Made by a program: the position numbers and the translations under genes
Shown: in pieces, positions 52,286 to 54,449 of the stretch
Position numbering within the stretch: position 1 is the first letter of the stretch
How the letters are laid out: the number at the start of each line of letters is the position of its first letter
The notes under the pieces: generated by a model
The model's database searches: none
The model's input: only the letters and a program-made list of their open reading frames with translations
Told to the model about the DNA's origin: nothing
Source: Aquisalinus luteolus
GTDB lineage: Bacteria > Pseudomonadota > Alphaproteobacteria > Caulobacterales > Parvularculaceae
DNA length: 64,000 bases
Direction of reading: 5' to 3'
Assembly (NCBI RefSeq): GCF_009712425.2
Contig: NZ_VCJR02000002.1
Coordinates: forward strand, 186,001 to 250,000

Positions 52286-52841
52286 TGATTGCTCCGTATG
52301 CGGGGTGTTTCACCGGTGCCGATCTGTCAAGGGCGGCTTCGCCGCCGCGAAGCGGTTTCACCCTTGACTGATCGTCACCGGCAAAACAATGGCTTCGGTT
52401 GACAAATTACCTGCGCCAATATCGCCGTCACTCGGCGCGCGCGGCGTTGGGTGGTTATCCGCCTTCGCTAAAGCTCCGGCGCGACAAGGAAGGGGGCCCG
52501 TGGGGACACTGCGGCATCCTTCATAATTCTAAAGTGTGGACGCCTCGCGCCCCCACGGCGGTGATCTGGTGCCGGGCTGATACGCGGCTCTCCGGTCTGC
52601 CCTGCCAGGGGACAGAACACCGCTCCGATGATCGACATGAGGCTCGCATGCACCCTCCTTCGCCAAGGCTGCGGAGGGCAAGCCCTCCCGGCCTGTAACG
52701 AACGTCACCGGAAACCTGATGCGCCGGTCCGCCTGTCGGTTCAGGCTCGCCGGCACCTCCGCCCCGGTCCGCACCGGCGCTTGGCGAGGGTTATAGGCGC
52801 GGTGGAGGTGGCGGGGATAAGATTTGGGTTGGGAAAGAGGG
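52286..52841. other. Gene-poor repeat-rich gap (no gene seen)
   Basis: I see no convincing gene in these 556 bases. Several GC-rich inverted fragments occur, for example the pair of segments around 52317-52355 (AAGGGCGG.../...CACCCTTGAC) and a CCTTCGCCAAGG palindrome near 52667. The stretch looks like decayed repeat or mobile debris ahead of the repeat-flanked nuclease genes. Confidence 0.5.
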
Positions 52842-52979
52842 CCCTCACCCAAAATTTGCTGTGCAAATTTTGACCTCTCCCAGAGGGAGAGGGTGGGCAT
52901 CGCGCGATGGGAGCGGCTTGGCCTCCACCTCTCCCTTGGGAGAGGTCGGAAAATGCGTTAGCATTTTACGGGTGAGGGG
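52842..52979. repeat. Inverted pair of two-hairpin repeats (REP/BIME-like), unit A
   Basis: Two copies of one unit face each other. The right copy (52928-52979) has hairpin 1 (CCTCTCCC/GGGAGAGG, 52928-52945), a GGT step, hairpin 2 (AAAATGC/GCATTTT, 52950-52967) and a G-rich tail GGGTGAGGGG. The left copy (52842-52896) is its mirror, with hairpin 2 at 52851-52871 and hairpin 1 at 52874-52892. The right copy ends on the base before the first DUF559 ATG. Confidence 0.8.
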
Positions 52980-53339
52980 ATGATGGATCAGAACATCGAC
53001 AGAGCGCGGGAATTGCGGCGCAACCAGACTGAGGCCGAGCGGCGTGTCTGGAATGCCCTGCGTAATCGCCAGATCGACGGCCACAAGTTCCGGCGGCAGC
53101 ATGCCATCGGGCCATATATCGTCGATTTCGTTTGCCTAGACCGGAAACTGATCATCGAACTCGATGGCGGTCAGCATGGTGAGCCGCAAGCGCGGGCCTA
53201 TGATGCGCGGCGTACGGAATTTCTGGAACAGGAAGGCTTCGACGTGATCCGGTTCTGGAATATCGATGTGTTCGAGACTCTGGATGGCGTGCTGGAGCGG
53301 ATTGCCGAGGCGCTACGTGTGCCGCCGCATGGGGATTAG
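52980..53339 (+). CDS. DUF559 (VSR-like) endonuclease-domain protein, copy 1
   Basis: The 119-residue protein shows the DUF559 core: AERRVWNALRNRQIDGHKFRRQHAIGPYIVDFVCL, LIIELDGGQHGE and VIRFWNIDVFETLDGVLERI. The D...ELDGGQH pattern is the PD-(D/E)xK-like nuclease site of the Vsr mismatch-endonuclease fold. ATGATG follows directly on the G-rich tail of repeat unit A, and the TAG abuts repeat unit B. No methylase partner is nearby. Its 3' half matches copy 2 almost exactly. Confidence 0.85.
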   Translation: MMDQNIDRARELRRNQTEAERRVWNALRNRQIDGHKFRRQHAIGPYIVDFVCLDRKLIIELDGGQHGEPQARAYDARRTEFLEQEGFDVIRFWNIDVFETLDGVLERIAEALRVPPHGD

Positions 53340-53480
53340 CCCCCATCGCCCTCTACGAGGGCACTTCCCCCGCAGGCGGGGGAAGAATTGCATCGCACGA
53401 TGCTTCGGGTTTTACTGAAGCCAGAGAGTGGCTTTCCTCCCCCGTTTACGGGGGAGGTGGCCCGAAGGGCCGGAGGGGGC
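53340..53480. repeat. Inverted pair of two-hairpin repeats, unit B
   Basis: The left copy (53340-53385) reads outward from the stop codon of nuclease 1. Its hairpin 2 is GCCCTC/GAGGGC (53348-53362) and its hairpin 1 CTTCCCCCGC/GCGGGGGAAG (53364-53385). The right copy (53436-53480) has hairpin 1 CCTCCCCCGT/ACGGGGGAGG (53436-53457), hairpin 2 GGCCC/GGGCC (53459-53471) and a G-rich tail. Nuclease 2 starts one base later. A 50-base spacer with a small palindrome (53390-53403) separates them. Confidence 0.85.
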
Positions 53481-53481
53481 A

Positions 53482-53838
53482 ATGCGTAAGGTCAATCCAC
53501 GGGCGAAGGAGCTGCGCCAGCAGATGCCGGAGGCGGAGCGGCTGTTATGGACGCATATTCGCCGCAGGCAACTGGACGGCCACAAATTCCGGCGGCAGCA
53601 TGCCATCGGTCCTTATATCGTCGATTTCATCTGCCTAGACCGCAAACTGGTCATCGAACTCGATGGCGGCCAGCATGGCGAGGCAGACGCGCGGGCCTAT
53701 GATGCGCGGCGTACGGAATTTCTGGAACAGGAAGGCTTCGACGTGATCCGGTTCTGGAATATCGATGTGTTCGAGACTCTGGATGGCGTGCTAGAGCGGA
53801 TCGCCGAGGCGCTGCGCGTCCCGCCGCATGGGGATTAG
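53482..53838 (+). CDS. DUF559 (VSR-like) endonuclease-domain protein, copy 2
   Basis: The protein of 118 residues starts MRKVNPRAKELRQQM and has the same nuclease core as copy 1 (LVIELDGGQHGE). From about codon 32 to the stop the two copies are nearly identical in DNA, whereas the first 30 codons differ clearly. This suggests a duplication followed by local conversion, or recombination through the repeats. ATG 53482 comes straight after repeat unit B. A longer ATG at 53428 would translate the repeat itself and is rejected. Confidence 0.85.
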   Translation: MRKVNPRAKELRQQMPEAERLLWTHIRRRQLDGHKFRRQHAIGPYIVDFICLDRKLVIELDGGQHGEADARAYDARRTEFLEQEGFDVIRFWNIDVFETLDGVLERIAEALRVPPHGD

Positions 53839-53979
53839 CCCCCATCGCCCTCTTCGAGGGCACTTCCCCCGCAGGCGGGGGAAGAATTGCATCGCACGAT
53901 GCTGCGGGTTTTGCTGAAGCTAGAGTGTAGGTTTCCTCCCCCGTTTACGGGGGAGGTGGCCCGAAGGGCCGGAGGGGGC
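53839..53979. repeat. Inverted pair of two-hairpin repeats, unit C
   Basis: This copy of unit B lies exactly 499 bases downstream, with hairpins at 53863-53884 and 53935-53956 and the same G-rich tail. Its left end touches the stop codon of nuclease 2. Its right end touches the stop codon of the AT-rich gene on the other strand. Confidence 0.85.
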
Positions 53980-54449
53980 TATTCGATGTCTTTGCTATGT
54001 TCAGTGAAAACTTTTTCAGCATACCCTTCAGGTAACCTAGACTTGCCCCTGTATCCAAAAGCAGACCATCCTAATGCGTCCCTTCGCATTTCTAATATAA
54101 TATCATTATGCGCACGAGCTAGCTCTTTGAATTTTGAATCTAATGGATCAGAATCCATAGATAAAACTTTCTGAGCTTCCAGAAAGAGATCCATATATCT
54201 GTTTACGGCTAGATGAACATTAGGCTCACCATAAAATCTCAAGAGGGTATGGGCGTCTATATACTCTTTAGATAGCGGTAAGTCGTCTCCGTATGCATCA
54301 TTGGGAGTTGGGCAGATTATCAGGAAGCTTTCATATATTCTTCGTTTTTCGCCCAAGACCAGCTCTGACTGATTGAAAACGCGCCCCATCAAAAAGCCGA
54401 TTGAGCCAATTACAACGCTACCAAGGAATATGAGGAAGCTCGTGAACAT
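53979..54449 (-). CDS. AT-rich orphan membrane-anchored protein
   Basis: The 156-residue protein has one N-terminal helix (FLIFLGSVVIGSIGFLMGRVF) and a cytoplasmic part, probably all-helical. I recognise no family. The base composition is clearly richer in A/T than any neighbour, with many ATA, AGA and TTT codons. Its stop codon abuts repeat unit C. Horizontal acquisition is the simplest explanation. Confidence 0.6.
   Translation of the reverse strand: MFTSFLIFLGSVVIGSIGFLMGRVFNQSELVLGEKRRIYESFLIICPTPNDAYGDDLPLSKEYIDAHTLLRFYGEPNVHLAVNRYMDLFLEAQKVLSMDSDPLDSKFKELARAHNDIILEMRRDALGWSAFGYRGKSRLPEGYAEKVFTEHSKDIE

Follow-up and report, generated by a model that had tools for sequence, protein, structure and literature searches.

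Inverted two-hairpin repeats around DUF559 nuclease genes in Aquisalinus luteolus: a candidate RAYT/REP-like mobile unit

REP-associated transposases (RAYTs) act on REP palindromes and, to our knowledge, are the sole dedicated enzyme known for some REP-like palindromes. A stretch of 64,000 nucleotides from Aquisalinus luteolus, here termed the window, raises the question of whether a nuclease of another kind might stand in a similar relation to its repeats. Two small nuclease genes of the DUF559 family are found there between inverted palindromic sequences, and a first-pass annotation of the DNA had proposed that a Vsr-like nuclease may spread or maintain the repeat in the way that a RAYT does.

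The module extends over positions 52842-53980, where three inverted two-hairpin pairs alternate with the two genes and at most one base is left over at a junction (Table 1). Pair A ends at 52979 and abuts the ATG of gene 1 at 52980; pair B ends at 53481 and abuts that of gene 2 at 53482. Downstream, the gene 1 stop at 53339 is followed by the start of pair B at 53340/53341, and the gene 2 stop at 53838 by that of pair C at 53839/53840. These coordinates agree with the first-pass annotation, which had described right copies of units A and B ending 0-1 bases before a start codon, left copies of units B and C beginning 0-1 bases past a stop codon, and a module of the order pair, gene, pair, gene, pair; both encoded proteins belong to PF04480.

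Table 1. Features of the repeat and nuclease module (positions in the window)
Feature	Position	Strand	Basis or remark
Inverted pair A, a two-hairpin unit in two copies separated by a spacer	52842-52979		Folding, repeat comparison, Rfam match
Pair A, left arm	about 52841-52895	minus	
Pair A, right arm	about 52925-52979	plus	
DUF559 nuclease gene 1	52980-53339	plus	Pfam profile; N-terminal 31 residues fit type-A lineage
Inverted pair B (type B repeat)	53340-53481		Folding, hairpin pattern; arms about 53340-53387 and 53434-53481
DUF559 nuclease gene 2	53482-53838	plus	Pfam profile; N-terminal 31 residues fit type-B lineage best (narrowly)
Inverted pair C, 95% copy of pair B	53839-53980		Sequence comparison
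Tandem duplication, 3' part of gene and start of pair	53076-53874	plus	53076-53375 again at 53575-53874, 94%

In single-strand folding, pairs A, B and C each surpassed 200 of 200 shuffled sequences (z -10.5, -5.2 and -4.4), and a B-type hairpin pattern with up to three mismatches is found four times in the window against 0.11 expected. Types A and B differ in sequence and display a common plan, which consists of a C-rich tail, hairpin 1, hairpin 2, a spacer and the mirror image. The C-rich tails are outermost in the window pairs, and the layout is pair-gene-pair, whereas the simplest cassettes have one unit per side with the hairpins outermost. The tandem duplication has a spacing of 499 and an identity of 94%, and includes the last 264 bp of the gene; beyond its N-terminal 31 residues, gene 1 is nearly identical to gene 2. 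Pairs B and C, which both lie in this duplication, have an identity of about 95%, so the window contains two repeat types and not three. The earlier view that the three units share a layout and differ in sequence thus holds for the layout and for A versus B; a separate third type is ruled out, since C is a copy of B. A further long palindromic sequence (TTTCACCGGTG...CACCGG...AAAACA ends) is present left of the module at 52300-52400, and similar sequence adjoins several solo B pairs (L005, L006, L007 and L009).

Both window proteins match the DUF559 profile, PF04480, well above its cut-off (E 6e-41 and 8.8e-41; 139.2 and 138.6 bits versus 20.6), and a relative of solved structure is 3hrl (E 1.4e-33). 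An AlphaFold model of the nuclease (pLDDT 87) was compared with known structures by Foldseek. 3hrl ranked first, followed by the homing endonuclease I-Bth0305I (E 2.3e-4, TM 0.65 by query length), the closest structure outside DUF559, and by Vsr (1vsr, E 4.3e-3). The modelled protein displays the catalytic fold of I-Bth0305I, an EDxHD enzyme, and the predicted fold resembles the Vsr/homing-type EDxHD branch of the PD-(D/E)XK superfamily. Residues R12, E19, W23, Q39, D48, E59, D61, G62, Q64, H65, R77 and R90 are invariant among 44 aligned proteins. PADLOC and NCBIfam returned just weak or below-cut-off matches (DpdF, E 6e-7; ProA, E 1.3e-5; PRK09767, 112 and 104 bits versus 218). The EDxHD fold is related to that of Vsr, and YcjD is presumably a DUF559 protein. 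EDxHD enzymes are reported to constitute a homing family (PMC3943268) and YcjD-like proteins are tied to Vsr by profile (PMC1189080).

Three sets of DUF559 genes were compared with control genes, which were called by a crude longest-ORF finder. The family set consists of all 70 matches from 62 genomes (40 with a match), and its controls are 334 ORFs taken from family genomes, in twenty stretches of 20 kb at round coordinates chosen blind. In the phylum, 98 of 249 genomes have a match; the 69 places examined are the best of 29 genomes and 40 hand-picked among the matches listed, so weak matches are under-represented. The named-genome set comprises the best 80 of 564 relatives, from several phyla, and its controls are 104 ORFs located in these loci at a distance of more than 900 bp. 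Hairpins with a perfect stem of at least 8 and a loop of 3-8 were counted if at most 250 nt from the domain, and inverted flank similarity denotes a score of 34 or more between the two flanks.

The association of hairpins with DUF559 genes is general and is found in many kinds of bacteria. Hairpins on both sides are present at 43/70 family places (controls 1/334), 37/69 places of the phylum sample (5/284) and 51/80 named-genome places, the best 80 of 564 (5/104). On at least one side the corresponding figures are 63/70, 65/69 and, again for the best 80 of 564, 73/80, versus 55/334, 61/284 and 34/104. The two flanks also resemble each other in inverted orientation in 39/70, 43/69 and 57/80 cases (the last among the best 80 of 564) against 0/334, 1/284 and 3/104, an arrangement of inverted repeats at both ends as in terminal-inverted-repeat transposons. 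Two outcomes would have spoken against the proposal, DUF559 genes of relatives lacking the repeats and repeats equally frequent at random genes, and neither occurred. Repeats at other DUF559 lineages have different sequences, and five divergent members (L096-L100, at most 72 bits) display no hairpin within 200 nt.

Two observations concern the surroundings of these genes. The upstream neighbour is co-directional with DUF559 in 148/189 cases versus 342/596 control genes, as called by the crude gene finder. In several DUF559 proteins (L035, L042, L180, L212 and others) the downstream repeat encodes the stop codon or the last residues, and C-termini such as ...LPPP and ...TPTPLPEGEG are formed by the repeat.

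By comparison of sequences, repeat type tracks the nuclease lineage and not the host. Four types found in family flanks (A, A2, B and II) were defined by regular expressions written after the flanks had been viewed, and 54 of the 67 genes in the nuclease tree were typed; three of the 70 genes were too short and were left out. The repeat type changes five times on this tree, versus 25-36 times in 200 shuffles and 22-34 times when shuffled within genus. Ten genomes, including that of Aquisalinus luteolus, hold DUF559 genes with different repeat types. Upstream and downstream types are the same in 36 of the 38 genes typed on both sides, and window gene 1 (A/B) is one of the exceptions.

The agreement is closest for the N-terminal 31 residues, whose tree requires three changes, the minimum, versus seven for the tree of the other 81 columns. 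Upstream labels alone give three changes on the N-terminal and five on the C-terminal tree; downstream labels alone give five and seven. As the N-terminal codons adjoin the upstream repeat and the fit to downstream labels is weaker, closeness in the DNA may explain part of the N-terminal agreement. In the window, the N-terminal type of each gene is that of its upstream pair: gene 1 scores 54.3 for type A versus 25.3 for type B, and gene 2 narrowly favors type B (49.7 versus 45.5 for type A). The C-terminal parts of the two genes are alike. A simple account of this history would be that an A-type and a B-type cassette recombined.

The repeats are also found away from the nuclease genes. The 3.68 Mb genome (nine contigs) has two DUF559 matches, both in the window module. 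Seven places match type B well (E 3e-10 or better), two in the module and one comprising just half a pair; six match type A (E 1e-12 or better), one in the module. This leaves ten solo places in the genome. A scan with the hairpin pattern located one additional B-type hairpin, on contig 5. Solo copies of both types are thus present away from DUF559, a point that the first-pass annotation had proposed to check. The number of type A and type B hairpins per genome has a median of 11 in the 40 family genomes with DUF559 and 0.5 in the 22 without (p 2e-5), and of 13 versus 0 in the 43 genomes of at least 90% completeness (p 6e-5); these counts include hairpins at DUF559 genes, and the genomes are non-independent. 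A reversed control pattern matched in no family genome scanned. There are exceptions in both directions: some DUF559-free genomes carry many hairpins (35 B hairpins in G034, 10 in G030), and some genomes with DUF559 have none of these types (G027, G040, G057, G001 and G003).

Type A has a counterpart in Rfam. Both arms of pair A match RF01762, whalefall-1, from end to end, with scores (28.7 and 27.6 bits) that do not reach the gathering score of 37. All five solo A places in the genome match as well, three of them above the gathering score (44.8, 42.3 and 39.3) and two below. Among the 24 A/A2-typed loci, 20 were searched; each of the 20 gave a match with an E value no higher than 0.1, and one of these exceeded the gathering score. 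No match to RF01762 was found at the four B places compared, and no match to any Rfam family in 60 kb of family control sequence (three of the twenty stretches). Twenty named loci gave no RF01762 match at the gathering level, so RF01762 is the signature of a subset.

Several loci bear on movement. At 5 of the 70 family places (L046, L079, L082, L088 and L095) a truncated copy of a neighbouring gene is found beside the cassette. In L082, L088 and L095 it is a truncated ruvB start to the left, and L088 has two such scars. L046, at astB in genome G035, displays two scars with a common end base, one before a GIY-YIG gene and one before DUF559, and at L079 a stretch of 39 nt repeats the junction of the neighbouring genes. 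The copies are unequal, from 39 nt to more than 100 nt, and some include the repeat; they do not constitute target-site duplications of fixed length. A scan of the 69 phylum places gave no clear target copies, only five alignments, all of repeats.

Two genomes each hold a pair of copies. In G233, two copies of 585-588 bp (L159 and L181; 86% identity, inverted ends of more than 100 bp) lie 5.7 kb apart on one contig, and their similarity extends about 20 nt past the left hairpin and a few nt past the right one. Two copies in G012 (91%, 535 bp) cease to be alike close to the right hairpin and about 49 nt beyond the left. Neither pair of copies has an exact short target duplication. A genome of the same genus, G010, has a type-A module at a site where Aquisalinus luteolus has none; in the latter, the corresponding position is occupied by further ORFs and by a solo B pair instead of being cleanly empty. 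The window locus has no empty counterpart in the four relatives with argG, where the surroundings of that gene differ. Matches to gene 2 are present in 45/72,556 plasmid and 3/50,697 phage records, and one such phage protein is annotated as a homing endonuclease. Overall, gene and repeats very probably travel jointly.

In many family genomes, ORFs of unrelated kinds are likewise inserted in the ruvA-ruvB gap (among L122-L151, e.g. L131, L136, L137 and L146). A putative DUF559 remnant at the ruvB site of G045 (L133) was set aside, as the match is weak (12/17 residues, E 0.004) and L134 gives E 0.005 from repeat-encoded residues.

The reading that we favour, and consider reasonably probable as a whole, is that of a mobile unit resembling RAYT/REP and operated by a Vsr/homing-type nuclease, with the window module as a tandem of two such cassettes. 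Each cassette would consist of a single small nuclease gene bounded by inverted two-hairpin repeats, with which it would be inherited and moved, and the solo pairs elsewhere in the genome would be non-autonomous relatives, as REPs and REPINs are to RAYTs. The nuclease would read the hairpin unit of its own lineage, probably via its N-terminal segment, and might nick or cut that unit or the adjoining target. Repair synthesis or strand transfer could then copy the hairpin-ended cassette, or a gene-less pair, into an intergenic gap, at times duplicating the 5' end of a neighbouring gene. That the nuclease itself drives the spread appears fairly likely, and the first-pass proposal that it may do so is supported.

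An alternative that we consider unlikely, though with some claim to attention, is that gene and repeats travel together while the nuclease has no part in the spread of the repeats. The repeats would then be convenient ends or recombination tracts, and the enzyme would serve otherwise, for example in very-short-patch repair connected with cytosine methylation, the role put forward for VsrA of Caulobacter. That protein is said to contain DUF559 and is reported to be linked to the methyltransferase ScmA (PMC12907096). The predicted Vsr-like fold is in keeping with this alternative, and so is the agreement between nuclease lineage and repeat, since joint inheritance suffices to produce it. On the other hand, both types occur as solo pairs in this genome and hairpins are more numerous in genomes with DUF559, which suggests that the repeats multiply with help, and the nearest structure outside DUF559 is a homing endonuclease.

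It is improbable that the nuclease gene inserts into pre-existing REP-like repeats. Some insertion sequences are described as targeting REPs (PMC1525189), and solo pairs that could serve as landing pads are present in this genome. However, among the 30 ruvA-ruvB junctions read (from 56 RuvB matches), five have a DUF559 cassette, two have such hairpins alone and 23 have neither, so that the repeats there seem to arrive with the gene; on these junction data the idea was dropped. The tracking of nuclease lineage by repeat type inside one genome also argues against it. Equally improbable is a role of the repeats as terminator and ribosome-binding site, kept for gene expression. G-rich tails do stand directly before both window start codons, but a G-rich stretch 4-16 nt upstream is found in just 11/65 family genes, on which count a general ribosome-binding role was discarded, and the same pairs occur without a gene. 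Least probable of all, and mostly refuted for this genome, is that a RAYT (Y1 transposase) moves the repeats with DUF559 as a passenger: the layout is that of RAYT/REP units (PMC2817692), but the genome, with an assembly estimated to be 100% complete, has no match to the HuH tyrosine transposase profile PF01797, Y1_Tnp is found in 0/6 genomes of the genus and 12/62 of the family (10 over the cut-off), and in place of a conserved GTAG/GTGG foot there is no GTAG or CTAC in pair A, one CTAC in B and one GTAG in the variable spacer of C.

Standalone GIY-YIG genes may offer a parallel. In 30 family genomes, the best GIY-YIG places, standalone or other (L326-L355; 30 of more than 150 matches listed), have hairpins on at least one side in 22/30 cases, on both sides in 9/30 and inverted flank similarity in 11/30, figures that exceed the family controls (55/334, 1/334 and 0/334). 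On a first look, the pattern is similar to that of DUF559 but weaker and involves other palindromes, for example ATTCCCGC...GCGGGAAT. At the astB site of L046 (G035), a GIY-YIG gene with its own palindromes is located left of DUF559.

Tentatively, and with more doubt than confidence, one may think of a broad, unnamed class of minimal mobile elements. Each would carry one small nuclease gene (DUF559 or, separately, standalone GIY-YIG) with hairpin-forming inverted ends, which the nuclease of the respective lineage would recognise via its N-terminal segment. Such elements would home to gaps where conserved genes begin, spreading gene-less pairs in trans, and several orphan palindromic repeats, together with at least one catalogued noncoding RNA (whalefall-1), would be the DNA ends of nuclease cassettes. 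REP-like palindromes are common in bacteria; if the favoured reading is true, a second, unrelated enzyme has reached the same partnership with them. Orphan repeats would gain a candidate enzyme, a function would be found for DUF559 proteins whose present annotation is unknown or repair enzyme, and the Rfam family whalefall-1 would gain a new meaning.

The limited literature that was searched contains no paper tying DUF559 to such repeats and none joining Vsr with 'repetitive extragenic palindromic'. Among known systems, the closest in layout are the RAYT/REP units or REPtrons, in which one nuclease gene stands between two inverted copies of a palindromic repeat, further copies being found solo and paired, and in which nuclease and repeat lineages agree (PMC2817692). 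The RAYT analogy of the first-pass annotation is apt in these two respects, and the inverted flanks described here are likewise found solo. The enzyme differs: REPtrons encode a HuH protein (Y1_Tnp), whereas DUF559 has a putative Vsr/EDxHD-like fold. DUF559 units also lack a conserved GTAG, have two hairpins per unit and are sometimes accompanied by target-gene copies. The DUF559 module is not a member of the RAYT family.

With the EDxHD homing endonucleases such as I-Bth0305I, the module appears to share the catalytic fold, as modelled, and DUF559 cassettes are often located at the starts of conserved genes. They differ in lacking an intron or intein, a further DNA-binding domain within their 118 amino acids and a known target, and in having inverted hairpin ends. 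Vsr and Caulobacter VsrA display a similar predicted fold, but no methyltransferase gene was seen in the ORFs beside the window genes, and palindromes are unmentioned in the main text of the VsrA paper (PMC12907096). Finally, whalefall-1 is listed as a noncoding RNA found solely in a whale-fall metagenome (PMC2864571). It resembles unit A and its solo copies over its whole length; what is catalogued there as a noncoding RNA is found here as inverted DNA pairs tied to a nuclease.
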